Positions 11,830 through 61,300 of a stretch of 64,000 nt of DNA are shown here, one piece after another. This DNA comes from Cymbomonas tetramitiformis (Eukaryota > Chlorophyta > Pyramimonadophyceae > Pyramimonadales > Pyramimonadaceae): contig LGRX02024823.1 of the NCBI GenBank assembly GCA_001247695.2, forward strand, positions 1 through 64,000. Reading direction: 5' to 3'. The position numbers were made by a program, and so were the translations under genes. How positions within the stretch are numbered: the first letter of the stretch is position 1; each line of letters opens with the position of its first letter. The notes below the pieces were generated by a model. That model was not told the DNA's origin and did no database searches. It was given only the letters and a program-made list of their open reading frames with translations.

Positions 11830-12351
11830 TCACCAACTCGCTGTGACCCATTTAGGCAATATGAACATAAATTTGGTGTTGGGAGGATCTCTGTCAAAGT
11901 CGGCCAGGGCCTTCTGAAGACACTTCAGAATGATGTCATGGTCGAAGGGCGGGTTCCCATAGCAATGCCTGCCAGCCCAATCATTGACAAAACATGTGTC
12001 AGCTAGGGTGCAATAATCATCCAGGATATGGTTGTCATCGGAGGAAAATAGCTCCAGGAGGAAAGGACCATGAGTGGTGAAGTGAGGCTTGGTGTCCTGA
12101 AACTTCCAGTCAAAATGGTCTCGTCGATCATCAGTATGCTTGGCAGCACAGGCTAGATGGGTGTCCAAAGTCTCATAGGTATCCTCATGCATAATATACT
12201 GGTTGCCTGGCAAAGGAAAACACGGCCCCCCCTTTGGACACAGCTCTGGCCCCAAAGTCCACAAGGAAACCCGCATCCTCGAGCACCACCACCGACAAGA
12301 GGTTGAAGGGTTGTCCAGGTATGCAGTGTGTACCAAGAAGCTGTAGCTCAA
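11830..12351 (-). CDS. copia-1 methyltransferase-like domain between protease and integrase
   Basis: The frame encodes GPFLLELFSSDDN, then an Asp/Trp-rich stretch, then YGNPPFDHD and NTKFMFILP. This pattern (GPF..D, then NPPF, then a hydrophobic strand ending in P) is also found in copia-2, the gypsy element and both DIRS elements here. It resembles the DPPY-type motif of phage Dam-like adenine methyltransferases. It is joined to protease by a frameshift at a C7 run (about 12,226-12,232) and is in frame with integrase apart from one TGA. The fold call is an inference; the shared motif is directly visible. Catalysis is untested. Confidence 0.6.
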   Translation of the reverse strand: MSYSFLVHTAYLDNPSTSCRWWCSRMRVSLWTLGPELCPKGGPCFPLPGNQYIMHEDTYETLDTHLACAAKHTDDRRDHFDWKFQDTKPHFTTHGPFLLELFSSDDNHILDDYCTLADTCFVNDWAGRHCYGNPPFDHDIILKCLQKALADFDRDPPNTKFMFILPKWVTASW

Positions 12352-13141
12352 CCATGCGCCCAGACTTCACATCCCTCTTGGCAAAGGTAACAGAGCCACT
12401 GCCAGAGGAGCACACAGACTGACTCTGCACCACGCTGAAGGTCTCACAGACCTCAGTGTCATAGTCCGCATTGAACACCTGAATAGAGTTGAAAATGTGC
12501 TTGGTGGCACCACTGTCCAGAACAGCACACTTGCCCACAGTAGATCGAGAGCCAACACCGCCAGCACTCGCACCACACGCCATCTGAGCATGGCGACCAT
12601 CAGCAGGGCAGTACATACCACACGCCCAAGCATCAGAGGGCATCTGACCATCCACCTCACACGAGTCAGAGTCCAAGTCCAAGCCTGTGATGAGGTCATC
12701 GAAGTCATCATCACTGTGGTCTTCATAGTAGTCACCAGGGACTAGAGCCACAGAACAGAGGCGGTTCTTGTGAGGCGGACGGAATAGTCCAGAGGCCCAA
12801 TCATCAGAGGGGATACCACCCACTCCTTCATAGGGCTGCCCAAGGTGCATATCCTCTTCCTCGTCAGAGTCAGAGGCACTTTCCAGATCTGGCATAGTAT
12901 CCGAAGCATAACCATCATCAGAGGAGCCATCAGGGGAGGAGCCAGAGTCCCACTCTTCTGCCACAGACCAGTGAGGCGGATGGAATAGTCCAGAGGCCCA
13001 ATCATCAGAGGGGATACCACCCACTCCTTCATAGGGCTGTCCAAGGTGCACATCTTCTTCATCATCAGAGTCAGAGGCACTGTCTAGATCCGGCATAGAG
13101 TCTGAAGCATAACCACCATCAGAGGAATCCAGTGCAGCCAC
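12185..13141 (-). CDS. copia-1 aspartic protease region
   Basis: The catalytic motif reads AVLDSGATKH, as in copia proteases, and GQPFNLLSV follows about 85 residues later. The N-terminal half is acidic and holds two direct protein repeats of about 65 residues, each with GYASDxMPDLxSASDSD and a GGIPSDDWASGL core. A third, out-of-frame trace of the same repeat sits at 13,084-13,190, so the overlap with the upstream gag frame reflects a frameshift inside the repeats. Confidence 0.85.
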   Translation of the reverse strand: MAALDSSDGGYASDSMPDLDSASDSDDEEDVHLGQPYEGVGGIPSDDWASGLFHPPHWSVAEEWDSGSSPDGSSDDGYASDTMPDLESASDSDEEEDMHLGQPYEGVGGIPSDDWASGLFRPPHKNRLCSVALVPGDYYEDHSDDDFDDLITGLDLDSDSCEVDGQMPSDAWACGMYCPADGRHAQMACGASAGGVGSRSTVGKCAVLDSGATKHIFNSIQVFNADYDTEVCETFSVVQSQSVCSSGSGSVTFAKRDVKSGRMVELQLLGTHCIPGQPFNLLSVVVLEDAGFLVDFGARAVSKGGAVFSFARQPVYYA

Positions 13142-15608: not shown

Positions 15609-15676
15609 AATGAATTTGCGTACGCGCAGCGGAAATTAGCGTGATAAACAAAATAGAACTCACTTACAACGTAAGT

Positions 15677-15688
15677 GGGCCCATAACC
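15677..15688 (-). promoter_or_regulatory. copia-1 primer-binding site, half-tRNA(iMet) type
   Basis: On the minus strand the 5' LTR ends in CCAACA and is followed at once by GGTTATGGGCCC. This is the primer site of Drosophila copia, which pairs with the 5' half of initiator tRNA-Met at the anticodon stem-loop. The same 11 bases sit at the same place in copia-2. Confidence 0.85.
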
Positions 15689-16023
15689 TGTTGGAATTCT
15701 ATACAGGGTAGTTTGCAAAAGCGAGCGTAAACTTTCATTCACAAAAGATAAACCAGTTCGCAGCTTGAAACGCCACGAACATTAGCGCCCAATCATTACT
15801 GATTGGGCAGTCTAAGTGAAAGTTCACTAATTAGAGTCTGACGTGTCACTGTCGAGTTCATAACGACTGCAGTGACCCGCCTACGATGGGCCGATGAACT
15901 CTCCGGCCCACTATCAGAAGATGGGCCGCGAGCTATTACACACTGTGTGTTGCCGATGGTCATCATATGATCCAACGGCCACGATTAGTTCAGCAGATCT
16001 ACAGATCTAGATCTAAGGGTTTC
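15689..16023 (-). repeat. copia-1 5' LTR, proximal part
   Basis: Matches 7,964-8,298 with about four differences. It is cut at GGGTTTC by DIRS-1 and resumes at 21,304. Confidence 0.93.
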
Positions 16024-16454: not shown

Positions 16455-17815
16455 TCACTGTGACCATGTTAACCAAGCGAAGTAGTAGTCCATGTCTGTG
16501 TCCCTCAGAGCTGTCGGGTCGATGTAGTGCTGCACTGCCGAAGAGAACTGTGACCAGCCTCCAAAGAAGCACACTTTCTCCATTGCAACACCCACAGCTC
16601 GAGCACACGTCGTGGCACCCTTCCGGGTGCTGTGTGCAGAAAAGTGACCTCCTTCCGGAGGTCTGCAGTCCAGCTCGCTGAGAGCCAGACCAATCCAGTC
16701 ATTTGCCACTGAAGCCTTGAAGTTCTTCGGGTCCTCGGGTAGCAGCCAGTAGGCGTCAGGTTGAGTCTTCTCAGAACTGTTCCAAGCCGTGTCACGGTGG
16801 AACTCCTAGTGCTCGATCAGCTCCTTCAACAGAGCCACCCCCTTCCAGGGGATGCACAGGCGTCTCTTCACCAGTTGATGCCGCCGTCCTTTCTCCTTTA
16901 GCAGCACCACTGAGAACTCACTGTCGCCACAATGAACGTGCTGCCGTGACAACGATGTCCCCGTGTCCGGTCTGCCGAAGGTCACGAAGGCAACAACCAC
17001 GTAGGCGAAGGCTCGCAGTAGCCGCAGCTCCTCAGGCGATCTCGGAGTCAAACTCAGCGCTGCTTCGTGCACACGTCATACGTGTGCCGCTGGCAGCCAC
17101 GTCCGCTGGGTCTCGATGTTCTCCTCCTGCACCGTCAGCTCCGCCTGGATGGTCGCCATCCCCTTCACAGCTCGGGTCACAGAACGCCCCTTCGCTGGTC
17201 CAGGAAAACGTAGGTCCTCGTGGTAGTTGTTGATGGCAGACAGGTACGGCTGCAAGGAGGCCGACTTGATGCCCCCGTCCTTCAACAGAGAGGCGATGTA
17301 CAGCAACACCGTCGCCTCCGATGCTGGCAGCCACGGCCGTTGGTGCTGCTCACAAAACAAAATGAAGCGCCGTGCCTTCGGTCCGTAGTTGCTCATCGCC
17401 GTGTCCAGCAGTGCCTTTCTCTGCATCGTCACTGCCAGTTCCGTGAGCCGGGAAGGTCCCAACTCACCCCTCCACCGCTCACAGAGTGAGCGCGTGAGGA
17501 AGTTTTGTACAGCACCACCGCGCTTGTACTCTTCGTAGTGGCCTCCGCTGATCCGCTCGGTGTTCTCGCCGTCCGCGTCCGCTGCCTCGTCCGTGCTGTT
17601 GATGATTTTGAAGTTCTCCTCAGACAAGTCCAGCGTCTCCTCGTCGCCGTCGTCATACAGCACGTGCGCCTTCCCGTCCTCGTCGAACTCCTTCGCCACA
17701 CCCGGGTAGAAGCAGTCATCGTCCTTCCAGAACACCTCGATTTTCGTGCCCACGGTCACCTTGCTCGCTGTCGTACTCGTAGCAGAGCTCCTTCGTACTT
17801 CAGCAGCGTAGTAAC
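16455..17815 (-). pseudogene. DIRS-1 Tudor-like domain plus tyrosine recombinase, interrupted
   Basis: The frame 18,131-17,076 carries a Tudor-like module at 17,604-17,757 (GTKIEVFWKDDDCFYPGV, VLYDDGDEETLDL) and the recombinase N-terminal SAM-like region (LSAINNYHEDLRFPGPAKGR). A stop ends it, and the catalytic half continues in 17,072-16,806 (VAFVTFGRPDTG, LLKEKGRR) and 16,709-16,455 (HFSAHSTRKGA with H-x-x-R, and HYIDP with the nucleophile Tyr). The RT stop TGA is embedded in the first frame as CCCGTGAG. Confidence 0.85.
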
Positions 17816-19882
17816 TCACGGGCGCGCCTCGATGAAGAACATCACAGCGTCCCACTTTGAGGGCCCGAGCAGCTCGGACCCTCCCAGCCTGCTCGGAGTG
17901 AACAAGTCCTTGCGCCGCGGCATGATCACCACCTCGGTGGCCAGGGCCTCCAGCTCCCTGAACCAGGACTGTCCCGGCCAGTACGGAGCCACCACCGTAG
18001 CAGCGGCCCCCTCCTCCCGCAGCTTGTGCGCCACCTCGTCCAGCAGCGCCCACGGGGGGTTCACCCAATTGTTTTCCCCCCGCCAGTCGTACGTCAGAGA
18101 GTCCACACCTTCGCACTTCGGGTCCTTCCACGCAGCGTAGTACCGAGGAAGCTGCGCGGAGATCTCGGAAGCGAACCGGTCGACTGTGTAGGGCCCCACT
18201 GCTTGTTGGCCCACACGAACCAGTCCCGATTCAGCCGCCAGTCGTCCAAATCCTCGCAACGCGAAAGGTTGTCGGCCCACACGTTGGCCTCGCTGCGGAT
18301 GTACCGAGCCTGCAACTCGATGTCGTGCAGATCCAGTAGCAGCCAGAGTCTCCTCATTCTCCTCATCAGGTCCGGGTTTCTGGAGGTGAAGTGCGAAAGC
18401 ATTGCCACCACCGCCTGGTTGTCGCAGTAGAGCCGTACGACCTTGCCCTCCAGCTCCTGCAGGAACGCCTGTACGGTCTTGTACACGGCCTCCAGCTCCA
18501 GGTGTGTGATGTGCCAGTTGCGCATCTCGTCTGGCCAGAAACCTCGCGCGGGGAACTTCAGGTTCAGCACTCCTCCCCAGGCTGTCATCGAAGAGTCCGT
18601 GTGCACCTTCGCTCTCGTCGGGGATCTCCAGATCTTGCGCCCGTTCCACCTGCTCATCACAGGCAGCCTGGACCACCATTCTAAGTCCCCCCGAGCTGCA
18701 CGCGAGATTTTTACCTTTGCTCCCCAGCTGCGTTTCTCTGCCAGCACGAAGTAGAGCTCCCGTAGGTAGAGCCGCGCCGCTGGTACTGCCAAGTACACGG
18801 ATTGGCAGAGTCCCGTGAAGGAAGCCAGTCTCCTGGCAGGAATCCACCTCCGATTTCTCGCTGCGTCGCACAGGATCTCCTTCGCCTTGGTGTGGATCTT
18901 GTGTACCCGTCGTTCTGTTACACGGAATTGTCCCAGCTTCAGGTCCACCTCCAGCCCGAGGTGCTCCACCACCTGTGTAGGCTCCCATTGGCCCTTCTTC
19001 TCGTTCCGCCGTAGGCCAAGTCGATGAAGCACCAGTTGAACTTTTTCTCGACGCAGAAAGCCTTCTCGCTGAGAGTCGACCAGCACCAGAAAATCGTCCA
19101 TGTACGGTAGTACTCGCATTCCGCTGTGACGGTTCGCGTCCCCGCCAGCACCACCGGTCCTGCGACGGACTGACCATCGCTGTCGTACTGCGGAACCGTC
19201 CCGCAGTCCTCCTGATTTCTCTGCGATCTTCCGCTGCCTGTGGAGAACGTAGAGCTTCCACCATCACGCGTACGAACTTGCAGAACACCCTCGGAGCGTC
19301 GCTCCATCCGAACGGCATCGCTGAACATTGAAGCAGGTCCCCTTGCAGGTCGAACTGCATGAATCGTTGAAAGTCCGGGTGGATCCCCAGCGCATGAAAA
19401 CCGTCCTGGAGGTCGAAGCTGAAGCACCAGTCGCCCGGTTTCGCCAGTCTCCTTAGTTTCTTCAGCGTCTCCATCTTCACACGATTTTTCACACACCACT
19501 GGTTCAGCCATCGGAAGTCCACCACCAGTCTCCACTTGTTCGTACCCGGTTTCGGCACTAAAAAAGCGCGAGAAACATGAGATCTTCTCGTCGCTCTCGT
19601 CCAGGCATCGTTCTGTAGCAGCCTCTCCTTCTCCGCGTCCAGCCACACCTGCTGCTGCCGCGTAGCATCCCTCAGTGACACCCCGTGGTCGAACGGAGGC
19701 GGAGGCCCGCGCTTCCACCTCAACTTCACCCCGTGAGTAATCCATTGCATCACCTTGGAACTGGCGCCCGCCGCGCGCCATTCTCCCCTCCGCTGTCTCA
19801 CCTGCTGTTGCACGGTGAGTTTTCCCCGCCCAGCGCCCGGAGAGGGCTGTTGCGCTGGACGGGGTGGCGGCACGCACATCAC
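17816..19882 (-). pseudogene. DIRS-1 RT, RNase H and methyltransferase-like ORF, frameshifted
   Basis: The first frame carries RT blocks (FLVPKPGTNKWRLVVDFRWLN, SFDLQDGFH, MPFGWSDAPRVF). It shifts between about 19,230 and 19,120 into a frame with MRVLPYMDDFLVL (YMDD), the connection region, and RNase H (VHTDSSMTAWGG, LELEAVY, YCDNQAVV, SEANVWADNLSR). It shifts back near 18,200 to TVDRFASE, WVNPPWALLDEV and the stop. DIRS-2 encodes the same protein uninterrupted, so these are two damaging indels. The terminal NPPW domain corresponds to the methyltransferase-like domain reported for DIRS elements. Confidence 0.88.
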
Positions 19883-21303: not shown

Positions 21304-21417
21304 TTTCATAGGGTTTCTTTAGGGTTTCTTCAGGGTTTGAGCATCCTGACTACTGTACAAGGCCTAGACAGTCATGCTTTACACCAAACTGATCAGCAGG
21401 CACTGCAGATTCCAATA
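21304..21417 (-). repeat. copia-1 5' LTR, distal part
   Basis: Continues the LTR from TTTCATAGGG to ATTCCAATA and is identical to the end of the left LTR. It is followed by the target duplication GCTGG. Confidence 0.93.
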
Positions 21418-21422
21418 GCTGG

Positions 21423-32204: not shown

Positions 32205-32555
32205 ATACACACACACACACACAGTTGAATCATATTAAATCTGAATGAAGTGTTTTGAGTTACAGACAGTGCTTTTATCACTCAGTTGTGTTCCCGCCCT
32301 CAGCTTACTGTTACTCAGTCATAGCTACTTCTACTCGCACTAGTACTCTTGTGTTCTGTAACCAGATACTGTATACATCTTGAATTGATCTGATGACTCT
32401 GCTGCAGTCTGCTTGTCATCATTGCTCTGTCTACATATACACACAGTACTATACTCTGACAGTATAGTCATACTGTCATACTGTCATCATTTGTCATAAT
32501 TTGTCATTTTGAGCCAACAGTGTTTAACACTGCATGAGAGTCTACTGTTTTCCTA
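32205..32555 (-). repeat. copia-2 3' LTR, inner part
   Basis: Starts in the (CA)n tract and runs to TTTTCCTA, matching 38,925-39,174 joined to 44,200-44,288. On the minus strand the adjoining AAGGAGGAG is the likely polypurine tract. Confidence 0.9.
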
Positions 32556-45668: not shown

Positions 45669-45702
<34 letters not shown>

Positions 45703-47986
45703 TGGCTCACCACATGTACATGCAACAGCAAATGCATTCCCATCCCGGCATGGCCGCACACCACCCGCAGATGGTGTCGTACATGCCCCCTACCCAAGGC
45801 GTGATGCCTGGGCCGCCTCCGCCCCCCCATGCCCCCCACCAAATACCCATGCCGATGAGCTCAGAGGTGGAGCCGTGCGCAGTGACGGTGCAGTACCAAA
45901 TGCAAATGCGCCAAATGCAGATGCCCCACGTGCACCTCGCTGGAAACCCTCCTCCGCTCGATGATCCAACGGTGCGCGTCCCTTCTCTCCTGCCTTCTCC
46001 CTACCGCCTCCACCTCACAGAGTTGCATAGGCAGAGAGAATCGACGAGGTGGCCAATGAGGCTACCACAGGCTCTCAGACCCGAACTCGTGAACCGGATT
46101 GCACCCAATCCAATGCGCAGGCCAGACGGCGCTCCGCCACGGGCTAGGCAAACTGCTGGCCAGGCGCGTTGTTGAGGCCGAGTCTGCATTGAGTGTTTGC
46201 CCGGCTGTTCCTGTTCCGCCCGAGGCGCTGCCTTCAGAGCAAGCATGCGGCCCGTTAGCCGCCTCTGCCCCGCCCCTTTGCGTGTGGCTGACACTCTCGG
46301 AGGGAGCGTCGGTGCGGGCACAGGGTGTGAGGATGCAGGGCGCTGCACATGGCGCCCAGAACGTGCAGGTGGTCGTACCGATGATGCCCGGCGTCGCCCG
46401 TCACATGCAGGCACCGCAGCCGCAGCAGCCCCAAGCAGCCTACAGCGCGGGCACGTGGGACGCGGCAGGCCTTGGAGTGTTGCACCATCAGCAGCAGCAG
46501 CCGCTGCCACATGGGGAGAGGCCGCAGTGGGAGGTGGGTCCGCCAGGGGCAGCCAATGGGGGCACAGGAGAAGTCCCACCAGAGTACAGCATGCCGGGCG
46601 GCAGTGGGGAAGAGATGGGGCGCAGCAGATGGGGGTCCCAGATACAGCAGCATCACCCTCAGGCATCGGAGATGCCCCATGGCGGCCGCATCATCCCGCA
46701 GCAGGGCGCGGCCCTGCAGCAAGGGGGCTCGCCGCTGGCGGGATCCCCCATCGGAAGCTCCCCACTTCTCGGGACGTCCCCGCGGCACCGGATGCTCGGG
46801 ACACCCCCCGGCATGCCGGCAACAAGCGCGGAGAATGCCGGCGTGTTATCACTGCTGACGGGTGAGGAGCAGGGCGGAGCCAACGAGGCAGTGCCACCCG
46901 CCACCGAGCGGCAGCCCTCCGAGGATGACCTCGGTGTGGGACCGGCCTTTATTGCAGAGAGGTGGCAGCCCGTCGCCGAGCCGGGGGCCTGCGCGCTGCA
47001 GTCCACCAAGGAAGAGGTGCCTCTCTGCCATCCGCCTCCCCCGCTTATGTTTTTGGAGTGAGTAAGCTTCTCGCCCTCGTCCCCTCACCTGCGGCAGGGG
47101 AAAGGTCAGCTGCTCGGGGCCTGGCTGATGCTCTCACAGACCTCCTGTGACATTCACAGGCTGTAGAAGGCGGCTCTGGTATCACGGGCAAGGGTTGATA
47201 GGTGGAGAGCAGGGCAAGAGAAAAGGGGCAGGGGTACAGCGATAGGGGCAGGGGTAAAGCAGAATCCGCGTGACTGTTACACTGACACCTCCGAGTTGCC
47301 CCTCACCGTGTCTACCACTCCCCCCCTCCCCAACACACATCAACACACAGTGCTTGCTCTAGTTTGGGATGCTCTATGTTTGGTATGACATCTGTCTCCA
47401 AAGGAGGTCCAAACCCATTATCGCACACAATCCTTTGATCCCCGGTGAAAGCACACAGTGCAGCCGGTCCTTTGTGGTTATGTAATGCCAAAGGAGTCGG
47501 TCCAAGGATAAGCCACACACAGTCGGGAGATAGCAGCTTGGGGGGTGCCATAGGTGGACTGGGTTCAGATGCACAGCATCAGTGCGCAGCCAGCGCTGTC
47601 GTAGAGGCACTCAGGTGGCCCAGTGAGGCTTAAGGGGTGCGTTTCTCAGCTAGTGAGCTCTGGAAAATCCGGATGAGTGAGTGTCCCGAAGTGTGTGCTA
47701 AATGCTTTGATTCCCGGTGTGGGAACATATCTTCCGAGCCGGTCTTCCGATGCTATGTGGTGCCAAAGAAAGTGGTCCAAGGATAAGCCACGCACAAGCA
47801 CACACTGGCATAAGCCCATATGCGCACTCCCTGACGGCTCCTGCACTGATTCAGGGAGACCAAGAGATGGAGCGGACGAACTTGATCGATATGCTTCTAC
47901 CCCAGGAGACCAACCCTGCTCTGAGCACCTCGGGCTCACACTTGACCGTTGTGGAGGCCGGTCCTTCTGCTGCTACTCCTACCGAG
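45207..47986 (+). CDS. Host gene, exon cluster 3: Met/His/Pro/Gln-rich linker with polyGln
   Basis: Three exons are supported: 45,207-45,971 (255 codons), about 46,324-47,016 (231 codons) and 47,855-47,986 (44 codons). All begin and end in phase 0, matching the exon before the second transposon block and the UCH exon after. Composition is extreme: repeated MPxH, HMQPHPGHPQ-like stretches, a run of 18 Gln at about 45,647-45,700, and poly-Pro. The last exon (ERTNLIDMLLPQETNPAL) leads directly into the UCH domain. No globular domain is visible; this looks like a disordered linker, perhaps of a condensate or RNA-granule protein. The intron 47,017-47,854 holds two LINE 3' ends. Confidence 0.55.
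45647..45702 (+). repeat. CAG/CAA trinucleotide run coding polyGln
   Basis: A mixed CAG/CAA run encodes 18 consecutive Gln inside the Met/His/Pro-rich linker exon. CAA interruptions sit in the 5' half and a purer CAG run in the 3' half. Confidence 0.9.
47362..47513 (+). mobile_element. LINE 3'-end copy a
   Basis: From GTTTGGGATGCTC to CCAAGGATAAGC, followed by CACACACAG. The 159 bases 47,362-47,520 are identical to 54,180-54,338. The 3' part (CTTTGATCCCCGG, then GCCAAAGGA, then AAGGATAAGC) matches the end of the full LINE. It lies in a host intron. Confidence 0.82.
47522..47788 (+). mobile_element. LINE 3'-end copy b
   Basis: Matches 31,960-32,204 loosely, sharing GGTGGCCCAGTGAGGCTTA, AATCCGGATGAGTG, TGTCCCGAAG and CAAGGATAAGC. 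It begins right after the CACACACAG of copy a and ends at CACGCACAAGCACACAC. Confidence 0.82.
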
Positions 47987-48329
47987 GTGGGCGCGTCTTC
48001 CCCTCCTCTCCCTTGCCCACCACCGCAAGCTCCCCGCAAACCTGCCGCCGCCTTCCGGTGCCCCCTCACCCTCTCTGTCCTCATCCCATGCTCTTCTCTT
48101 CTTGCATGTTCTCTCTGTCAAGTTCGGTGCAGTCTGTCAGGTTGGACCTTACCCTCCCCCTCCTACTCCATAATTATCCGATGTCTCTGTCCAAGTCACC
48201 CACCCCCTCGAAGCGCTTCCCTCCATCTGCGCTTCCCGCACTGCACGCCCTCCCTGCCATCTCGAGGCCGCCGCCCAAGGAGCGTATGCCCGGGGGCTGA
48301 GGAGAGGGAGCGCGGGCGCGGAGCAGCAG

Positions 48330-51300
48330 GAGGTGCTAGGGCGTGGGCTCGTGAACGAGACGGGGGAGAACAACTGCTTCCTCAATGTGATCATCCAGTC
48401 CTTGTGGCACCTGCCCACCTTCCGCAGCACGCTGCTCCTGGAGCCTGAGCCCCGCGCCTGGGAGCCGGCCCCTCCCAAGGAGGACGTCGAGATGCTGCAG
48501 GCCTTGCGCCGAGTCTTCGCGGCTCTCTCGGAGCAGCAGTCCACGGCACGCGCCCCTCCCCGTGCCTTCTTCTTGGCGCCTAGCTCGCGACAGCCCCATC
48601 GAGCCCTGCCCCCTGACCCTCAATGCTTGCTCGCTCAGGAGTCGCCGCGGTCATTCCGATGAGCAGTGGCCTCCCCGAGGTAGTACTTGGAGCGGCCATC
48701 TCCACTCCACCGTGTTGTACCGCCGCCCCTCCCGTGTGGCAGATCCCATTCTGGAGCCCGCGCCCACCCCATCACCTGCGCTGTATGCGCGCTGTATGCG
48801 CGCTGTATGCGCGCCCTATGCGCCCTCTCTCTCCCGGCAGGCTCTCGGCGGTGTGCTCTGCGTAGTGCACGTGTGGGCCGGCACTGCAGGCGGAGGCAGA
48901 GCAGAACGCCACAGAGTGCTGAGCATGCGCAGTATGCGCCCCGGCAGCTGCGCGTGGAGGCTGACCTCGGCCGACTGCCATGACGCGCTTCATAGTGTGA
49001 CACGCGCTGTGGCGTGGCGGGGGCAGATTGCGCCTCGGGAGCTGCGCGCAGCGCTACGCCTGAGTGTCGGCGCGGAGTGGTTTGACCTTGAGCAGAAGCA
49101 CGACGCTATGGAGGTAGAGGCCGCCCCTAGCGCCAGCCCACCCCACCCCTTTCCTGTGCGCCCATTACCACCCTCAGATGCCGATTGCTGTTGGGAGAGG
49201 AACTCGAAGGCCCAGGTAGATGTCTCCCTGCTGGGCCGTGTCCATGCTGACGTGGATTGCCACGTGACAGAGCGGCCGGAAGAATCCGCCGTGACATCAC
49301 CTCGGTGCGGGGGTGTGCAGGTCCTTGATCTCATCTTCGCGGCGCTGCATCGTGCGCTCGGGGGCGGAGGTGAGTCCACCCACTCTCAGGCCGAGTCGGC
49401 ACGTCTCTGTGTAGACTCTAGGATGCGGCTTCGGCAGGGGTGGCCATGCCTGGCACAAGCGTGCTGTGCACACGCGCTGGTTGAGTTCTGGGGTTCATCA
49501 GAATCGATCCCGAGGAGAGAGGGGGTTGCAACCTTAGGGGGGTGGCATGGCAACGGCGGAATCATTCGCAGGCCAGGGCCGCATCGTGGGTAGTCTCTTT
49601 AGCTGGTTGCAAGCTTGCATAGGAAATGGGTCCGGTATGGTGAGGGGGGAGGGGGGAGGGGCCTGGCAGAGAAAGTGGAGAGCTGGGTGCAGCGCATGAT
49701 GGGGCTGTCAATTCGCGAGCGCATGGTGTGCGGGCAGTGCGGCCACGCCTCCAAGCAGTCCAAGTACTACAACTTCTTCCACCTGGTGCGCTCTCGAGGG
49801 CGCCCGGCTCTGGGCCCCCTGCTCTATAGTCATGCGCCTTTTACTGCGGAGAGGGTTGCGGCATGCGGCGCCGGTGAGCACGCACCCGGCACGTGGCACC
49901 CGACACGTGGCGCATGTTGGGCAGCGGAAGGCACCGTGCGAATGCCGGTCCAGGTGAAGTAGACCGCCAGAAGGGACCGAAGAGGGGAATGATATGGGGA
50001 GTTTGTGGACAGGTGTCATCCACGCGCCTGCGAGAGACCCCACTTAATGGGCGCGAGGTGGGTCCTGGCTTTCCCCCAGATCCACCCATTCATTGCAGAC
50101 TGTGCTGGCATGGGTCTGCAGCGCAAGCGCCTCCTTCTTGCCAGCGGCACTGTGATGCGTGCGCCGCGCTGCACCTCCACCATCCACCGCCACCGCGCCG
50201 CGCTGCACCTCCACCTCCACCATGCCTTTTCCCAGTGGGGTCTCTGGCCTGCAACCCCTGATTGCGCCTTAGCATTGGAGGCTCAGTCGCCGTGCTCCCA
50301 TCTATCCTGCTTCCTGCAGGGGCTGGCGGAACGGCTGCGCACCCTCGCCGAGGAGGACGAGCGTTCTTGTGACCGGGACGCAGGAGGCTGCGGGGTGACT
50401 CCCCTGGTCTTTCACTTGCCCCACCTTGCGCTGACCTCCAGAAGCTGACTTTGGCTGCCATTGGGTGGGAAGCCAGTTCTCAACCACAGCTGGGCCCAGC
50501 AATTGGAGGGAGATGTTGCCCGCTGCCAGGAAGATATTACTCCACGTGATGTCCAACTAAAACCTGCTAGATGCTAAATCGCATCCCGCATCACCAAATC
50601 TCATCCCGCATATCACCAAATCGCATCCTGCATATCACCAAATCTCATCCTACACGTCACCAAATCGCATCCCGCATGTCCCCAAATCTCATCCCGCATG
50701 CCACCAAATGTCATCTCGCATGTCATCAAATCTCCTCTCGCATGTCATCAAATCAAATCGAGCATGTCATCAAATCAAATCGAAAGCATGTCATCAAATC
50801 TCATCTCGCATGTCATCAAATCTCATCTCGCATGTCATCAAATCTCATCTCGCATAAGCCATCAAATTCCCTCTCGCATGTCATCAAACGTATCCCGCAT
50901 GTCATCAAATCTCATCTCGCATGTCATCAAATCAAATCGAGCATGTCATCAAATCTCATCTCGCATGTCATCAAATCTCATCTCGCATGTCATCAAATCT
51001 CATCTCGCATGTCATCAAATCTCATCTCGCATGTCATCAAATCTCATCTTGCATGTCATCAAATCTCATCCCGCATGCCACCAATCCTGAATTTGTAGAA
51101 TGCTTAAGTGCTGAAGTACAACAGCAGTTGCAAAATGGTCGCCAGGTTCAGCAGGCAATCGCCGTTGAGCCCAACACAGGAATACCTTTTGCACAAATCA
51201 GCCCTGTGACAAAAGCCGGTTCGGGAGGAGTGGGGCGCAAACGGGCGGGGGCAGGCAATGAACGGCATGCAGCACTGGCTGCACAACCTTCCGGTGGCAT

Positions 51301-52110
51301 TCGCCCTGGCCATTGTCTGGGACACGGCGCAGGCTTCCTCCCAGGAGATAGCATCCACCATGAGTGGGCTGTCCACTGAGCTGAAGCTCTCTGCCATCTA
51401 TCACACCGAGACGTGCACTGGCACAGTGCACCACCTCCGCTGCATGGTGGCGTGCCTGCCGCTCCCATCCCACCACCTATGTCAATCACTTGAGTCGATA
51501 AGTGCCCTCTCAGCTCGAAGTAGCCCAATGCCACATGCTGTGCGACAGAACCACAATCCTGTCATTCGCCAGGAGCGTCAGAATGTGTGGGGCACCTGAA
51601 TGCGTGCTCACAAAAATTATATGCTGCATTCGTCATGAGGGGCCTTATGGCACATTTGGCATAATGGCACAGCCGCGGGCTTTGATGTGATGGCACAGCT
51701 GTCCCCCTTACGGTTCCCCTCACAGCAATAGTTGCACAAGCAGAAACCAGGCAGCGTCAAGTTATGGCAGGGTATTGCACACAACTGTTTTTTAGGGAAA
51801 TCATTGATCAAAGGGCAATGTCACAATATTTTGGCAGCATGTCACAATATTTTGGCAGCATGTCAAAATAGTGAGTGGCAATGCGGGCAACAATGTGCAG
51901 GTTTGTTACTATGGGCAGCACTATCTTGCCTTCGTGAATGTCGAGAGCGACCACTCAGTTGGCGGCACATCCCTCGGCCGCTGGCACTTGTTTGATGATT
52001 CCACAGTGAAAGTTGTAGGCGACTGGAATGACGTGATGCAGCAATGTCGGAAGGGGCGATATCAACCCTCGGTGCTGTTTTATCATCAAGAAGCTGCCGG
52101 GCAGCACTAA
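48330..52110 (+). CDS. Host gene, exon cluster 4: UCH (ubiquitin-specific protease-like) domain and stop codon
   Basis: Exons: 48,330 to about 48,540, 49,027-49,113, 49,321-49,369, 49,670-49,785, 50,013-50,057, 50,320-50,394, 51,255-51,446 and 51,901-52,110 (TAA). The Cys box reads NETGENNCFLNVIIQSLW and keeps Cys and Asn. A CGQCGH zinc-type pair follows, then AGGCG, and the His/Asp boxes read CYYGQHYLAF and WHLFDDSTVKVV. These order and spacing features match, from memory, the plant UCH-related proteins (At3g47890/At3g47910). That family is often called inactive, but the Cys, His and Asp positions are present here. Phases fit at each listed junction except after the first exon, where a small exon or a non-canonical donor is missing. 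The likely role is ubiquitin recognition or removal; substrate unknown. Confidence 0.85.
50571..51090 (+). repeat. 22-bp minisatellite in a UCH-domain intron
   Basis: About 20 head-to-tail copies of a 22-base unit, CATGTCATCAAATCTCATCT plus CG, with point variants toward the left end. It lies in the intron between the exons ending at 50,394 and starting at 51,255. The unit length is not a multiple of three, so all forward frames stay open by chance. Confidence 0.9.
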
Positions 52111-54179
52111 GACTTTTCCCCCAACGGAGCCGGACATGCACAGTGATCATGTGCAGAAACAAAGTAGAAATTTAGATTGAGGAAAGCTTTTCCCCTGGCG
52201 GCTGCGACTCGCCCTTAAGAGAGGCTGGACCACTGAGTTGATGAGATAGGTGTACGAATTGGAACCATGGGGCATGCATTAGGAGAGCCCCGGACCATTC
52301 ATTGCTAACGTAAACAACTATGCTGTTATATTATTTTAATAAATCCAGCCAGTTGAACTGATGATTCTGGAACGGTTCCACAAGTGGATGCTCGAAAATG
52401 TGTGCGACAATTTTGCGTGATGAGGTGTGTACAAATGGCACGTGTAGCCTATGCCGCACCATGGCATTGGTGTGTGTTAAAGAGACATTATCTACCTCCA
52501 TTGCGCAATAAAGTCGGATGCTTAGTTAAGCAGTTTAGGGACATGGGTGACCGGAGAAAAAGTACGGTAGGACGTGTGATGGACTGACTATACAGGAACT
52601 CTCATATCGCAAGAGTGGAAGCAGTCGTCTTGTATGGGTGCCCGCTCGCTTTTAGGAGACAGCGCTGGTTCCGGTTTTAAGCCAGTTTTCTTGAAATACT
52701 GATTTCTCCGCCGCCCGAGCAGGTTGATCGTAGCCAATAGAAATTAGTTGCGGTACGTTTATTTGCAGTTTTGATAAGACTCGAGAAGCTGTGTCCGATA
52801 AACGAAATGAAATATTATTTCATCAATTCCTTTTAAATATATCGGCTGTGGAATACGTTTGCATTTGGGGGAGGTTGGAGGAGGAGTCTTTTAAACGTGC
52901 GATCTCTTACATCTGAGCGGAGACCCGTAGCTAGATATAGCAAACATTCGACATATCGATAGTTGTAGATATCGTTTTTGTGCAAAGGTATCGGTTTGTT
53001 ATTGAATTGCATACGACGGTCTGCATCGCACCGTATATCGAAATATGTATATAACGTATCGCTATAATGTGTAAGCAGACCATTAATGCACGTATCGAGA
53101 CGTCGATGGCGCTGTAGTTCCATTAGAGTGTACCGTATTTACATATCGATTCTATATATATTTAATTAATTGGGTCGCTGATAAGAAACAACGAACAATT
53201 AATTGGTCGGTTGGCTCTTGTCTTGCAACAATAAAAACAACAATAAACAATATGAAAAACAAACAAAATATTTATCAGTTCGGCCGCCATCAGAAATGCG
53301 ACCATGCTAAAAAATGCCTAAGTTATTCGAATCAAGTTTAACCCCAAACAACAAAGAACACAGATCAGCAAACCAAGAATACATAAATCCGCCCGCCGCG
53401 CCGCCACCGCCGCCACTACCAAGTGACCCCAACCTCTCGCGCCTCATATACTTTGAGGACAATGTTAAATGGACAGTATGCTGGGTCTGCCACCCTGACC
53501 GAATCAGGGTGTCGCCTACTATATGGATCCGACACTCTGACCGAATCTGAGTGTCACCTCATCCTATAATAGGCTGTGTGATAGTCACCCGTAGTCACCC
53601 GAGAACCGCGCTTAAACGCAAGCCAATATAACGGGCAAGTTAGCTACCGCTTATTCATTTACAGTAACACCTTCTAATAGTACTAGACGGATCGATCTCA
53701 AAAAGAGATCTCCACCAGGCCATCTGACCGTAGGATCATGTGCGCGACAGTGCTTCGCTTTTTGCATCCCAACATGCCATGCGATGACGCGTGGGTGGCG
53801 TCGCGGTAAATGTACGCGACTGCAGTGGCACTGTCATCGTTAGCGTCTGGCGATCGTGAGATCGGAAGTTCGTCCGTGTCGCCCGTTGGGATTCGCGCTT
53901 TGCTGCTGCTGATGATGATGATGATTAAGTGAGTAAGTAAGTAATTTGGTCCGGTTCCAAATCAAATTTCAAGCCTGCGGCGCTACCCTAGCTGCTGCCA
54001 CACCAATGAGTGAAATACATGTTTCGCGAGGTATTTCACGTGAAATTCGATTACCTTACTTACTCTCTCTCCATCATGATTCTCGAGAGCCCCGTTGAAT
54101 TTGCGAGGAATTCACGTGAAATACATCTCCCACGCGAATTCAACGGAGATCCCTTTATATAAGAACCTACTATAATTTG
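52111..54179. other. Intergenic region, largely AT-rich
   Basis: It follows the host stop codon. AATAAA near 52,338 could be a poly(A) signal. From about 52,690 to 53,400 the sequence is much more AT-rich than its surroundings, with many TATCGATA-like steps. A 96-codon minus frame at 52,833-53,123 has no recognisable motif. Near 54,090-54,150 an inverted repeat pairs CGTTGAATT with AATTCAACG. No confident gene. Confidence 0.5.
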
Positions 54180-54331
54180 GTTTGGGATGCTCTATGTTTG
54201 GTATGACATCTGTCTCCAAAGGAGGTCCAAACCCATTATCGCACACAATCCTTTGATCCCCGGTGAAAGCACACAGTGCAGCCGGTCCTTTGTGGTTATG
54301 TAATGCCAAAGGAGTCGGTCCAAGGATAAGC
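54180..54331 (+). mobile_element. LINE 3'-end copy c
   Basis: Identical to copy a with the same 5' break point, again followed by CACACAC. It lies beyond the host gene in what may be the gypsy LTR. Confidence 0.82.
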
Positions 54332-54338
54332 CACACAC

Positions 54339-55661: not shown

Positions 55662-57601
55662 AACTCCTCCCCTCTTAGCTTGTTAGTACAAAGAGATGAT
55701 AACTCAGAGTCATTTGTACAGCAGCTAAGATCCAGACACAGATCAGCCATGCGTATGGATGCGTGATATGCTTTTCTGATCGAACAGGTGCTCGAAGAGT
55801 TGACGAAGCAATCCAGCGGGCAGAGGGTATACAGCAGTGGAAACTCCGCTCCTTGTTGCCCTGGATGAGGTCCCAGTTGAGCAGTTTCCGGATGTGATCC
55901 CAGAGTCTGTTGGTGAAGACAAGGAGTATCCATCGTGCAGTACCGTAGATCCACTGGAGGAGGCGACTGCGTCCAGATGCAAGTAGGCTTGCGATAGCCA
56001 GTGCCATACATACAGTAAGAGCAATACAACGGGGTAGGTAACCGGCGAACTACGGGTCGAAATCGCAGCGCAAAGGGAAACCTGCCCATCGGATTTTCCA
56101 TAAACCAATGCTGGGGTTTGAGAAAGTCAAAAATTTGGAGCGTTCGGCGTACACAAGCATCAGCCTGTCGCAGTTGTCGCACCCCAGTGGTCTTAGCCTG
56201 ACTGTATTCGGTACACGGTGGACTAGCCCAGATGACGTCAAAGTAACCAGGTGCGTAACGCTTGAAGTCCCAGTCCTGAACCTTCTCAGCGTAGGTAGGT
56301 TGCCAGCGAGGATCATGATCGACGGTGACCACAGTGCTCTTCGGATAACATGACATGAAACTTCTCTCCACACTTCCTGTACCACTGAAAAGGACTAGTA
56401 GTCGCAACTCGCGTGTCGAGACCCCAGAGCCCAGAAGAGCTAGATGCGTCACAAAGGCGTCAGCGGAGCGACAGTATTGTTCCCAAGGTAGGCAGTTGTC
56501 CAGAGAAGTGAGTTTTCCTTCATCAGAGGTGTCCAGGAAAGTTAAAGCTCCGACGCGTTCCCGCCTTTGCTTCCGCTGCATTCTGACCTCCTGTAAGGCT
56601 TTTTCCCGGGCTTGTCCTTCTCGTGATAGTCTCAGTTGTTCGAACTCCGTGAGCTGTTCGAGTTCACCCCCGTAGTTCAACGACTCACGGGTCTTCCAGG
56701 AGTCATGAGCATTAGAGTACCCAGTCCAGCGAACCAGAAATTCTTCTACTTCCTTGCCTCCTTTCATAGGTTTCACTCTTCGAGGCAGAATCTTAGACAC
56801 ATGGGTCTGGGATTGTCCATCCACGAGAACCTTGGCAGGAGTAGGTATTTGTCGACGCAGCGCAAAGGCTTCATCCGCGGTGCGGTATTCCTTGAGGCGA
56901 TGCTGCGCAAAAACATCGTGGATACGCCATTTAGGGGGGAACTTGAGCCGGTAAGCCACCGGAGCACCTCTGTCAATTTCGGGTAGCTCTCGCTGCTGGT
57001 CACTGAAGAACCTCTCGGTGATGGGTAAGGGCCCGTGCCAGCGAGGTCCCAGCTTCCTGAAGGATTCGCGGTTCATGATATTTTCCGTGAGATGCTTGGC
57101 ATCTACCCAGACCAAGTCTCCCAACTGGAAGGATTTGGCGGTGTGACGCTGGTCAAACTGATGTCGCTGGCGTTGCTGTGCCAGTTCTAGCTTAGTGCGG
57201 GCGTCCTCTAGTTGAGCCGCGAATTTACTAGCCATCTCGTGTGCCGTACCTTCTCCACCCTTACGCTTGGAGTGTTGTCCAGCAGCCGCTTGCAGGAACA
57301 AGTCCAGTTGCGCCATAGGCGAGTGCCCCAAGACCAACTCAAACGGGGTAAAGCCGGTTACATCGCTCCGCGTATCGTTTATGGCGAACTCTACGTTGGC
57401 ACACCACAAATCCCAGTCCTCTGGATTGCTGCCTACGAAGGACCTTAGCATGTCTTCTACCACGCGGTTGGTATGTTCGGCTTGTCCGTCCGAACGAGGG
57501 TTGTAAGGCGTGGTGGAGGCCACTTTAGTTCCCATAAGTCTCATCAATTCCTTCCACATAGCATCCTGAAAACGAGGGTCGCGGTCAGAGACAATCTTCA
57601 T
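55592..57601 (-). CDS. Gypsy integrase C-terminal half, chromodomain and C5-methyltransferase-like domain
   Basis: 669 codons. The integrase core continues with SDRDPRF (second Asp) and SDGQAEHTNRVVEDML (Glu). A GPFPI-like module (GPLPITERFF) and RIHDVFAQHRLK follow. The chromodomain (about 56,640-56,810) reads VSKILPRR and EEFLVRWTGYSNAHDSW. Next, from 56,402 to about 55,960, come LLVLFSGTGSVERSF (motif I), VVTVDHD, FDVIWASPPCTEYSQAKTTG (motif IV with the PPC nucleophile Cys), HWFMENPMG (motif VI ENP) and YGTGYRKPTCIWT (motif VIII-like). These are C5-cytosine methyltransferase signatures. The tail to 55,592 has no clear domain. Confidence 0.85.
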   Translation of the reverse strand: MKIVSDRDPRFQDAMWKELMRLMGTKVASTTPYNPRSDGQAEHTNRVVEDMLRSFVGSNPEDWDLWCANVEFAINDTRSDVTGFTPFELVLGHSPMAQLDLFLQAAAGQHSKRKGGEGTAHEMASKFAAQLEDARTKLELAQQRQRHQFDQRHTAKSFQLGDLVWVDAKHLTENIMNRESFRKLGPRWHGPLPITERFFSDQQRELPEIDRGAPVAYRLKFPPKWRIHDVFAQHRLKEYRTADEAFALRRQIPTPAKVLVDGQSQTHVSKILPRRVKPMKGGKEVEEFLVRWTGYSNAHDSWKTRESLNYGGELEQLTEFEQLRLSREGQAREKALQEVRMQRKQRRERVGALTFLDTSDEGKLTSLDNCLPWEQYCRSADAFVTHLALLGSGVSTRELRLLVLFSGTGSVERSFMSCYPKSTVVTVDHDPRWQPTYAEKVQDWDFKRYAPGYFDVIWASPPCTEYSQAKTTGVRQLRQADACVRRTLQIFDFLKPQHWFMENPMGRFPFALRFRPVVRRLPTPLYCSYCMYGTGYRKPTCIWTQSPPPVDLRYCTMDTPCLHQQTLGSHPETAQLGPHPGQQGAEFPLLYTLCPLDCFVNSSSTCSIRKAYHASIRMADLCLDLSCCTNDSELSSLCTNKLRGEELCQGTIARPSHSIGILYLCILGQ

Positions 57602-58325
57602 AGGGGTGCCATGTAGTTTCCAGAACGATGTGGTCGAAGTAGATTCGAGCGATAACCTCAGAGGAGCTGTCCTGGAAGTTCAACGGGATGATGTGAACCA
57701 TTTTGCTGAGCTTACATGTGAAAGTAGCAAAGGCATCGTGATTCCGCGCCGTGACTGGCAGTCCAGTAACAAAGTCCACACTGACCACTTGCCATAGTCG
57801 CGTAGGAATAGTGTGTGGGTTCAGCAATCCATCCGGGTAGGAATTTCTCGGTCGCACCGCTTGACAGATAGTGCAAGATGAAACCCAGCGTCCCCCATCT
57901 TCTGCTGCCCCTTTCCACCAGAAGCGTCGCAGTACTCGTTCCAGAGTTTTGTCCCTGCCCGCGTGTCCAGCTGAAACAGATGCATGCGCCTCTTGCAGTA
58001 CTACCTCACGGAGGGGTGAATCTTCTCCCAGTACCAACTGATAGCGCCCAGCGCTCACCCTCCACAACACATCTCCCACTACGCAGAAGTCACGAGTGCG
58101 TTGATGCGGAGCTTCTTGGATTTCCTTCCTTAAAGTCTGGAGGGGACCAGGTCGCCCATATTCCGCTTGCAGCGCTTTGAGGAACTGGCCTCCTGATATC
58201 TGCTGATGCAGGTCTCGAACGCTGGCCGCTTCTCCAGTACGCACGATAGGAGGGGGGAACTCGTTTTCCTTTCCCGCTTGACACGCTGTCGAGCTGGAGG
58301 GGCGTACACCACTAGCAGGGGCCAA
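57585..58325 (-). pseudogene. Gypsy integrase N-terminal half, in a shifted frame
   Basis: Contains the HHCC zinc domain (EAHASVSAGHAGRDKT, CTICQ) and the first catalytic Asp in VVSVDFVTGLPV. It is joined to the upstream pol frame by a shift near 58,200-58,230 and to the downstream frame by a one-base shift near 57,610, where LHGTPMKIVSDRDP would be continuous. Confidence 0.88.
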
Positions 58326-61300
58326 GGCAGATCCAGAAGGGCTCCATCCGGGGCGGCGAACATCTGCACAGGTTCTCCTTGAGCGTCATGGGTAGGAATA
58401 ATGTACTCCACTCTCATTCCCTCAGATCTGAACAACTGCCGCCACTGTGGCATGCGAGACTGAAAGTCAGGAAGGACAAAGAGAGCTGAAGTATTCTCAG
58501 GGTCCAGACGCCATTCTTCCACATATTTCCTCGGTACGGCCTCGATGGTCAAATGGTTGGAGGAGAAGGGAGGATTGCACCAGACGTTCAACCCTCGCCA
58601 GTTTTCCTTCAAGCAGTCCGTCCAGTAGCGGTTGACCTGACGATTCTTTCCTCCCAAGTCGCAACAGGCGTCCACCTCGAAGGGTCCATATTCTTGACTC
58701 AAGAAGTCGAACATGTCCGCCCGGAACTTCCAGTCCTGTCGATCGCTGGGCTCCAGGAGTCTGGTTGAAGCCTCGCTGCACTTCGGCGTTGCTGAGAAAT
58801 CAACAGGGGTCTTCCTGGGAGAAGGGGGTGAGGATGCTGTCAGTTTGCCAGAGCGCGTCTGAACTGCCAGGGTGGCTTTCTCGTACCCAGTTTCGGCCAG
58901 CTGCAGGGTATGTAAGGCGTCCATCCAGAGTTGAGAGGAGTCCATCCAGGTGAGAGTCCCACTGTACGCGAGGACTGGTTCAGGCTCTTTGGTCTTGGCG
59001 CTGTTGGACTTGCGCTCCTTCAACTTGTTGGGATCTACCACTCCCAGGGGGGCGCGTCCTTGGCGGGACTCTTTACCAGCTGCAGGTCGAAACTTGCTGG
59101 CAGTGTCTGCGGCCGAGGGAGGTCGCTGCGGTTTCCCAGTAACCGGATGCACAAAGCCAGCTTCTACCAGTCCTTCTCTCGCGGAAATTTCCTTGTAGTC
59201 GGGTCGCCTGGACAGAGCGTCTGGAACCCAGAGTAGCGCCCCAGGGATGTATTCCATCTCGGGTACCCCTACCTCCACTAGATCCATGTACCATCGGGCT
59301 TGGCGTCGGCTGAGAGGTTGTCCAGGTGCCATTAACCAGACTAGGGGCTTATGGTCACCCTGCAATTGGAACTCGGTCCAGATGAGGTAGTGTCGCCAAG
59401 TTTGCGTAATGCAGTGATGGAGAGCGCAGAGTTCTCTTTCGCCGGCATGGTAGTTCTGCTCGGCTCCATTAAACTGTCTGCTCTCAAAGGCGATAGGTTG
59501 CAATCCATTTCCTACGTCTTGCATCAGTACTCCCCCTAGTGCCACTCCACTGGCGTCAGTTTGTACCACGAAAGGATGCCGTCCTTCGGCCGCCGCTTTC
59601 ATGTCGGGTAGCGCCAGAGTGGGGGAAGAACATAGCGCCTTCTTAATCTCCTCGAAGGCCCAACGCTGCATGGGTCCCCATAGCCAAGCGACATCCCCTT
59701 TGGTGAGCTGAGTCAAGGGTTGTGCTACTTCAGAGAAGCCCAACATGTACCGCCGGTAGTACCCAGCCAACCCCAAAAATTGGCGCACATGCGTGGCGTT
59801 TTCCAGAGCGGGCCAGTCCCTGATGGCGGCCAGCTTGTCATGTTGAGGTTGACTTCCTTCCCGTGAGATCACGTGCCCCAGAAAGCGTATCTGGGTCTGC
59901 AATAGTTGACACTTAGACTCTTTGAGGTAGATACCCTGGTTCTCACAGACTTCGAGAAATTGCTGGAGATGGGAAAGATGCTCCTCCAAGGTGTTGCTGA
60001 AGAGGATACAATCGTCCAGGAATATTCTTACAAAAGGAAGATGTCCCAGAGCGCGCTGCATGCGTCTCTGATAGCAGGAAGGATTGTTGGTCAACCCCAT
60101 GGGCATCACCAACCACTCATACGAGCCATAGGGAGAAGTGAACGCCGTCTTTTCCACATCCTCAGACGCCATAGCCATCTGCCAGAATCCATCGAGCGCA
60201 TCGAAGGAGGAGAAGTACTTGGCCCCATGCATGGAGTCGAACAACTGCTGAATGTCGGGAAGTGGATATTTGTCCTTGACGGTCAGGCTGTTGATGGCTC
60301 GGAAGTCGCAGACAATTCTGAGTACTTCAGGTTTCCCAGGCTTGGGAACCATCAGCACTGGTGCAGCGAACGGACTTGAGGAAGGTCTGATGTAGCCTTT
60401 GCTCAGGAGTTCATCCAGGCGTTCTCGCAATTGAGTCAGCTCCACCATGGACATCTTGTAGGGCCTCTTAGCGGGCGCGATGCCATTCCATCCCTCTTGC
60501 AGTCTCACGTGGGCCACTTCATCTTTTCGGAGGGCGTCAAAGTTGGGCAGCGCTTCGCGAATTACTCGAGGTGAAAAGGACTCGATCAGCTTCTGAAACT
60601 TCTTTCTCCACTCGGGGGAGATTGAAGGGTCCTCAAAATTCTCGCTGGTGGCCACCGCTGATAACATCGAAGTCCCTACCAGAGGTGTCGCATAGGCCAC
60701 TAAGATGTCGTGGGGTGTCGCGGCACTGTCCATTCCCGCATATCTGCGCCGATAGGCTTTGATCTCCTTGGTCGCTTCAGCCGCTGATAGCATTACCATC
60801 GGTTCCAGAGCCATCGCGGTTCTCTCGCCTTTGCGTGTAGAGCTACGCCCTGGCGAACATCCCCGTATCCGCACGGATTTGCCATGCTGGCGAAACTTGA
60901 CTGATCCCCACCCATCAAAGTCCAGCGTGACCGGCGAGAGGTGTCTCAACCACCTTCCTCCGAGTACAATGTCCACCTTGATGCGCAAAGGAAGTACTCG
61001 CATCTTGATGACCTCGGAGTAAGTCCCCTCGGAAGTCTCGGCGGTCAGCTTGCCGTAAGCGACTTGCGCAGAGGTCTGCACTGACCCATCCGCGAGGGTA
61101 ACGGTCAGCGGCATCCCATTAGCGCGAACTGTGAGGTTCAATCTCTTGACGCACTCACTGGAGATGAATTCATCCGAGGCACCCGAATCCACCAGCACGC
61201 GCACTCGCTGTCCCTTCAGCAAAGCCCAGAACACCAATAGCAGCGTTCCCTCTTTGTCCCGAATCGCAGTCAGCTGACTGTCCTGGTTCCACATTACTTG

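Follow-up and report, generated by a model that had tools for sequence, protein, structure and literature searches.

Introduction

Methyltransferase domains carried by retroelements have been described before: the passages of PMC3266345, PMC6338049, and PMC5890265 that deal with them place Dam domains in DIRS elements and cytosine DNA methyltransferases (DNMTs) in long interspersed nuclear element (LINE), DIRS, and Gypsy elements. One sentence of PMC6338049 is ambiguous, in that it could be taken to put both DAM and DCM in "Ty3/Gypsy and DIRS clades," although the preceding sentence assigns DAM to DIRS and DCM to both. Here we examine a 64,000-nucleotide stretch of Cymbomonas tetramitiformis DNA (contig LGRX02024823.1, positions 1 to 64,000; hereafter the window), which holds two copia-type long terminal repeat (LTR) elements (copia A and copia B), two DIRS elements (DIRS-1 and DIRS-2), and most of one gypsy element, all on the minus strand, and in which a Dam-like domain is found not only in DIRS but in all five elements. 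The best protein matches of the window come from C. tetramitiformis, a prasinophyte green alga, and include two proteins with 99% identity across the gypsy domain; genome searches were made in the 852-Mb assembly that contains the window (G000).

Several described systems come close. SymbioLINE-Dnmt, SymbioDIRS-Dnmt3, and KnitGypsy-Dnmt3 have a DNA methyltransferase fixed in pol or in a neighboring frame, with a Ka/Ks under 0.2 for KnitGypsy-Dnmt3, and the same paper argues for cDNA methylation by DIRS-borne cytosine methylases, similar to what we propose below (PMC5890265). Unlike the Dnmt3-type enzymes of SymbioDIRS-Dnmt3 and KnitGypsy-Dnmt3, those considered here are an adenine-type Dam domain and a short phage-type C5 domain, both within one gypsy polyprotein. 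The ParB-methyltransferases of algal DNA transposons are likewise transposon-borne N6-adenine or N4-cytosine enzymes with a proposed role in self-marking, but they belong to DNA transposons and are encoded by a separate gene with a ParB domain (PMC12477816). The passages found in PMC12695648 say nothing on transposon-borne Dam, and in the literature searched we recognized no report of Dam in copia or gypsy elements or of an adenine enzyme paired with a cytosine one, which does not settle priority.

One domain family in elements of three orders

The original prediction, made from the window's letters alone, was that the same methyltransferase-like module is present in five retroelements of three orders, and profile scores together with profile-profile links bear it out. 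As judged by these comparisons, all five elements carry a domain of one family, PF05869, the phage-type Dam adenine-N6 methyltransferases. Against a gathering score of 28.1 bits, copia A (32.4 bits), copia B (39.8), and gypsy (36.6) are all above it, and DIRS-2 is below it both as a whole pol (25.0 bits) and as a cut piece (16.2); the DIRS-1 pol frame gave no match at E 0.001, nor did a 107-amino acid (aa) piece cutting the domain. The DIRS-1 and DIRS-2 domains share 66% identity. Comparison with phage Dam sets by hhalign, a check proposed along with the prediction, joins copia, gypsy, DIRS, and phage at 75–99% probability, with E values of 2.2e-12 for copia-gypsy, 1.2e-11 for copia-phage, 8.8e-18 for gypsy-phage, and 1.1e-11 for DIRS-phage; DIRS-copia (4.2e-6) and DIRS-gypsy (1.6e-5) are joined in both directions, the reverse comparisons with DIRS giving 2.4e-5 and 7e-6. 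Sets of C5-methylases, RNase H, and integrases, used as controls in 12 comparisons, stayed at 0.1–0.7% probability.

It is because of these profiles that the link to phages is firm, since single-sequence matches to phages by tblastn are weak, with best E values of 2e-4 (gypsy), 8e-3 (DIRS-2), and 0.1 (copia B). Phage Dam proteins (PF05869, PHROG 111; for example those of Gordonia, Geobacillus, and Acinetobacter phages) are homologous to the retroelement domains over about 93–115 profile columns and share NPP(F/Y/W), but are products of free-standing genes, whereas the retroelement domains are parts of polyproteins. In a 20-row alignment of the domain, the invariant columns are N, P, P, and one glycine. 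The bare [ND]PP[WFY] motif was rejected as evidence: its five occurrences in the six frames of the window all fall inside the five domains, and 40 first-order Markov sequences gave a mean of 2.6 (range 0–7). Searches for relatives in viral contigs (copia, gypsy, and DIRS queries) and in prokaryotic genome contigs (gypsy alignment) confirmed none, being short-pattern searches that distant relatives could escape.

Structure prediction, also proposed as a check, gave models of one copia domain and of the gypsy domain with the S-adenosylmethionine (SAM)-methyltransferase fold; by profile the copia and gypsy segments are not unrelated to the DIRS domain, and the two that were modeled are not devoid of a predicted SAM fold. 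The closest solved fold of both models is that of PCIF1/CAPAM, a cap-specific adenosine methyltransferase, followed by RNA methyltransferases such as KsgA, Erm, and METTL5. On this basis the domain could instead be an RNA adenosine methyltransferase, acting on adenosines next to the cap or inside the transcript of the element itself and aiding translation, packaging, or escape from RNA sensing, with no marking of DNA. RNA methylation has been raised for LINE-encoded DNMTs in the part of PMC5890265 that discusses them, and PF12237 (PCIF1_WW) matches copia A weakly (E 0.0051; 16.9 bits, below its cut-off of 31.1). However, a fold match says nothing on substrate, PF12237 found no match at E 1 in copia B, both DIRS pieces, or protein P0001, and PDB sequence searches returned no credible match for the gypsy Dam domain or for the 20-row alignment, the latter not matching PCIF1. 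By sequence profile the relatives are phage proteins, most of which carry a DNA methyltransferase annotation, PF05869 itself is named for DNA, and in gypsy the domain occurs alongside a phage-type C5 domain resembling DNA methylases. We consider this main rival to DNA methylation unlikely.

Placement and retention of the domain

The Dam-like domain of DIRS elements lies after RNase H in pol (PMC3266345 and PMC5890265, in their descriptions of it), in agreement with the prediction's statement that such a domain is established knowledge for DIRS; DIRS-2 is an ordinary case of it and DIRS-1 probably another. What differs here is its occurrence in two further lineages: in Ty1/copia it follows the protease and precedes the integrase, and in Ty3/gypsy it has RNase H before it and integrase after it. 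This placement, as originally stated, stands by the order of Pfam matches for gypsy, for DIRS-2 (where the domain is at the pol end), and for copia A (between the protease region and integrase). In copia B the domain is followed by integrase and reverse transcriptase (RT), but the protease is not called by Pfam, a DSMATKSIF stretch being visible by eye; similarly, the order RT, RNase H, methyltransferase is seen in DIRS-2, with RNase H not called by Pfam in DIRS-1. The gypsy element has the Ty3/gypsy order of protease, RT, RNase H, then integrase, and the copia elements have LTRs and an integrase upstream of RVT_2, the integrase core being below threshold and an adjacent SH3_retrovirus match above its cut-off. 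When the DIRS frames were examined for a tyrosine recombinase, DIRS-1 gave a weak Phage_int_SAM_1 match (E 0.013) and DIRS-2 no Pfam match.

The arrangement is constant among relatives. A protein search with the copia domain yielded 36 proteins (30 named Cymbomonas, 5 from EukProt, and 1 from an ENA contig), and one with the gypsy pol yielded 27 (16 named Cymbomonas, 10 from ENA or JGI contigs, and 1 NCBI record). By precomputed Pfam annotation, 30 of the copia proteins and 24 of the gypsy proteins have PF05869; in the remainder the domain was assigned by phmmer with the window domains. The order protease, methyltransferase, integrase was found in 29/29 copia proteins in which all three domains were located (of 36), and the order RNase H, methyltransferase, integrase in 24/24 gypsy proteins (of 27). 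NPP(F/Y/W) is retained in 35/36 copia and 25/27 gypsy proteins, the exceptions being copia P0045, which begins after the motif, gypsy P0063, which reads SPPH, and gypsy P0069, which is without the stretch.

Genome copies and constraint

A loose first look at the assembly gave 7257 candidates with PF05869, 7405 with the copia domain, 8650 with the gypsy domain, and 4033 with the DIRS domain, sets that overlap and are unscored. We rejected these as copy numbers, since RVT_2 gave 2783, below the 7405 of the copia methyltransferase query. Scoring covered the best 150 per search, and among these, in tables read by eye, internal stops were absent from 150/150 matches to PF05869, 150/150 to gypsy (98–100% identity), 147/150 to DIRS (99–100%), and 135/150 to copia (89–100%), with open frames of up to 2577 aa for the gypsy query and 2358 aa for the copia query.

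The ratio of nonsynonymous to synonymous divergence (dN/dS) was computed pairwise among genome copies, with pairs at dS 0.05–1.5 in the main run. The median for the copia methyltransferase was 0.075 (30 copies, 384 pairs), as compared to 0.128 for the integrase (26 copies, 290 pairs) and 0.317 for the protease region (29 copies, 217 pairs) of the same loci; for gypsy it was 0.071 (21 copies, 27 pairs), as compared to 0.043 for the integrase zinc-binding domain (16 copies, 61 pairs) and 0.189 for the integrase core (15 copies, 75 pairs). Another run at dS 0.05–2, with locus L022 left out of the gypsy set, gave medians of 0.073 for copia (412/528 pairs) and 0.071 for gypsy (26/210 pairs). The methyltransferase's own values are biased low because loci were chosen by methyltransferase score; the flanking pol domains of the same loci serve as a partial control for this bias, and the window's copia A copy, which was not chosen by score, differs from the others by a median dN of 0.049 and dS of 0.46. 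It is fair to say that constraint on the methyltransferase domain falls within the range seen for the rest of the pol domains.

These figures also bear on whether catalysis has been lost, or was never needed, leaving the domain to bind nucleic acid or to serve a structural role in pol. In favor of this, the domain is short, and the description of the DIRS methyltransferase in PMC3266345 terms its function unknown. Yet the catalytic motif is kept in nearly all relatives, the invariant alignment columns include N, P, and P, and the median dN/dS is about 0.07, subject to the selection bias just described; we regard a noncatalytic role as quite improbable.

From its location in pol and its pol-like constraint, we infer that the domain would act in the replication complex on new cDNA. 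The reading to which we lean, with modest confidence, is that DIRS, Ty1/copia, and Ty3/gypsy elements carry the Dam-family domain as a fixed part of pol that methylates adenines of their own new cDNA. The polyprotein would bring the methyltransferase into the particle or integration complex together with RT, RNase H, and integrase, where the putative enzyme would methylate adenines of the element's freshly made cDNA; the new copy would then bear N6-methyladenine (6mA) and might benefit by being treated as permitted or active chromatin. Elements may chemically mark their own DNA or RNA. Given that at least 150 gypsy copies are open and nearly identical, and that loci of all kinds may number in the thousands, transposon-encoded methylation could be a main source of the genome's 6mA and of part of its 5-methylcytosine (5mC), a point of relevance to the dispute over where eukaryotic 6mA comes from. 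A review of eukaryotic adenine methylation by Iyer and colleagues is said to discuss such enzymes in mobile elements.

Not every copy lies in a recognizable gypsy setting. Eight of the 30 best PF05869 loci (L013–L018, L022, and L026) had no gypsy domains within about 1.5 kb, and wider stretches around two of those places (L073 and L075) and one elsewhere (L074) contain frames with the domain inside them or at their end. RVT_1 matches were below the cut-off in L073 and above it in L074, and the RTs of all three match the window DIRS RT better than that of gypsy or copia (L074, DIRS E 2e-13 as compared to 0.096 for gypsy; L075, 7e-6; L073, 4e-4); L073 also has a weak recombinase match. L076, a gypsy locus that represents a second gypsy family with the domain, also matches the DIRS query at 9e-8, so the RT matches are a hint only that L073, L074, and L075 may be DIRS-like elements. 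Their methyltransferases resemble the gypsy domain more than those of DIRS-1 and DIRS-2, with VDACCD and CNPPF in most.

Origin of the domain

A tree of 46 rows was built from 35 retroelement domains, including those of 8/36 copia and 13/27 gypsy proteins, and 11 phage domains, the latter being the best matches of our queries (11 of 12 fetched records, L008 left out). The best tree sets the 35 retroelement rows apart from the 11 phage rows at 100/99, so that the two lie on opposite sides of that branch. Copia forms one group at 100/99, gypsy forms one at 56/89, which is weak, and the DIRS-like rows are joined at 42/40; long branches lead to DIRS-1, DIRS-2, copia B, and P0071 as well as to some phages. 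The copia and gypsy groups take in metagenome relatives. The proposal that domains have been exchanged among elements now sharing this genome is not supported as worded, as domains group by order, metagenome relatives included, with no sign of recent swapping. The safe reading of the tree is that the domain would have been acquired in each order ahead of the split into present families and then been inherited within the order.

How it reached each order is a separate matter. Approximately unbiased (AU) tests rejected none of the arrangements tried. Joining copia or gypsy to phages gave p 0.364 and 0.193, respectively, and groupings within the retroelements gave p 0.461 (copia with gypsy), 0.175 (copia with the DIRS-like rows), and 0.194 (DIRS with the DIRS-like rows). 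The "repeated capture" of the original prediction is thus neither shown nor excluded, because the tests reject neither a shared pool nor separate captures. In the case of separate captures, DIRS, copia, and gypsy would each have acquired a Dam domain from phages or other sources on separate occasions, as opposed to one retroelement pool passing it between orders. The survival of trees joining copia or gypsy with phages is in keeping with this, as are the different position of the domain in copia and gypsy and a 93/81 branch of which DIRS with phages already forms one side. On the other hand, the 100/99 branch separates phage from retroelement rows, most retroelement rows begin DW(K/R) where 7/11 phage rows read W.T, and gypsy and DIRS-like rows mostly have VDACCD and CNPP(F/Y) in common (alignment features judged by eye). 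We see separate acquisition as a possibility worth keeping, but not as the probable course.

A second methyltransferase in gypsy

The original prediction overlooked a second methyltransferase domain in the gypsy element, of the C5 type, which sits behind the chromodomain at the C-terminus of the polyprotein. PF00145 scores 22.6 bits on the window copy (cut-off 22), the match covering positions 4–110 of 324, and 16.4–18.5 bits, below the cut-off, on the four relatives run. PHROG 757 ("DNA methyltransferase") scores 58.5 bits on the window copy and 64.2 on a relative, covering positions 13–170 of 247. Searching with the C5 domain by tblastn gave 18 phage and archaeal-virus records (best 34.8% identity, E 7e-17), and the best hits of a PDB sequence search were DNMT2-type enzymes (E 0.0097 and 0.014). 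In the assembly PF00145 had 6837 first-look candidates and 124 matches above the cut-off, counted irrespective of element, and most lower-scoring matches span only about positions 57–126, as the short domain does.

Both methyltransferase domains are present in 20/27 gypsy proteins, and four others have an integrase core without the second domain; among the 20, SPPCT is found in 17 and ENP in 16. The distant relatives P0070 and P0071 (methyltransferase identity 41% and 35%) have both domains by phmmer, with Pfam calling the Dam domain in P0071 and missing it in P0070, and because these distant relatives carry both, the pair looks old. P0071 also has a PHD finger at residues 1269–1313, between the Dam domain and integrase, and a similar Cys/His stretch is visible by eye in P0072.

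The C5-type methyltransferase behind the chromodomain could write a second mark, and the chromodomain and C5 domain would add targeting. Taken furthest, the Ty3/gypsy lineage would write both 6mA and 5mC on its own cDNA through two phage-type enzymes of one polyprotein, copia and DIRS would use the adenine enzyme alone, and the elements would thereby set their own chromatin state on insertion; this extended scheme is speculative, and we hold it to be rather doubtful as a whole. A Dam-type enzyme in copia and gypsy, together with an adenine-cytosine pair in gypsy, would show unrelated integration types settling on one phage-type tool.

Features of the window

The positions of the domains and repeats are collected in Table 1.

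Table 1. Predicted features of the five retroelements, in window coordinates.
Element	Feature	Position	Strand	Basis
copia A	PF05869 methyltransferase domain (GPFLLEL ... NPPF ... WPVVVLF); one in-frame TGA at 11830-11832	11650-12189	-	
copia A	Protease-region domain PF22936 (Pol_BBD), upstream of methyltransferase, in a different frame of the damaged copy	12266-12523	-	Pfam
copia A	Integrase core PF00665, below its cut-off, downstream of methyltransferase	11125-11415	-	Pfam
copia A	Reverse transcriptase RVT_2	9355-10065	-	Pfam
copia A	LTR, about 335 bp, 98.8% identity to partner	7964-8297	.	
copia A	Other LTR	15689-16023	.	
DIRS-1	Methyltransferase domain (VDRFASE ... NPPW), at end of pol frame; without Pfam match of its own	17819-18256	-	
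DIRS-1	Reverse transcriptase match	19244-19558	-	Pfam
copia B	PF05869 methyltransferase domain (GPFHLDM ... NPPY ... WPVVLLY), two stop codons	35723-36208	-	
copia B	Integrase core, below its cut-off, downstream of methyltransferase	35134-35394	-	Pfam
copia B	Reverse transcriptase RVT_2	33355-34086	-	Pfam
copia B	LTR, 255 bp, 97.3% identity to partner	32207-32461	.	
copia B	Other LTR	38920-39174	.	
DIRS-2	Methyltransferase domain (VDRFASE ... NPPW), at end of open 699-aa pol frame	40933-41373	-	
DIRS-2	RNase H	41467-41724	-	Pfam
DIRS-2	Reverse transcriptase	42064-42669	-	Pfam
gypsy	Second methyltransferase domain, short C5 (cytosine) type (FSGTGSVE ... SPPCTEYS ... ENP)	55955-56449	-	
gypsy	Chromodomain	56669-56803	-	Pfam
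gypsy	Integrase zinc-binding domain, downstream of methyltransferase	57846-58019	-	Pfam
gypsy	PF05869 methyltransferase domain (GPFEVDACCD ... NPPF ... WPLLVVY)	58283-58747	-	
gypsy	RNase H, upstream of methyltransferase	59276-59578	-	Pfam
gypsy	Reverse transcriptase RVT_1	59867-60349	-	Pfam
gypsy	Aspartic protease	60944-61219	-	Pfam

No repeat that could be the gypsy LTR pair was found between 53.9–55.2 kb and 63–64 kb, and the element may extend beyond the window end; its frame at ∼62.8–62.9 kb has a run of Pro-Asn repeats such as a CCCTAA-like telomeric repeat would encode. In copia B, stops occur both before and inside the methyltransferase domain, with further frame breaks elsewhere in the window, and a direct duplication lies in its 5' part (36893–38263; 300 bp at 100% and 126 bp at 99%). 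A frame of DIRS-1 that overlaps the pol end (17076–18230, minus strand) contains a stretch resembling a Tudor domain, which several Pfam Tudor models match weakly and none above its cut-off. An identical 114 bp is found at 8294–8407, just inside the copia A LTR, and at 21304–21417, at the DIRS-1 edge, perhaps reflecting nested insertions. Finally, identical 159-bp terminal repeats at 47362–54338 enclose 22-bp tandem arrays (50525–51150) and no frame of more than 400 aa, and this may be a nonautonomous LTR element.

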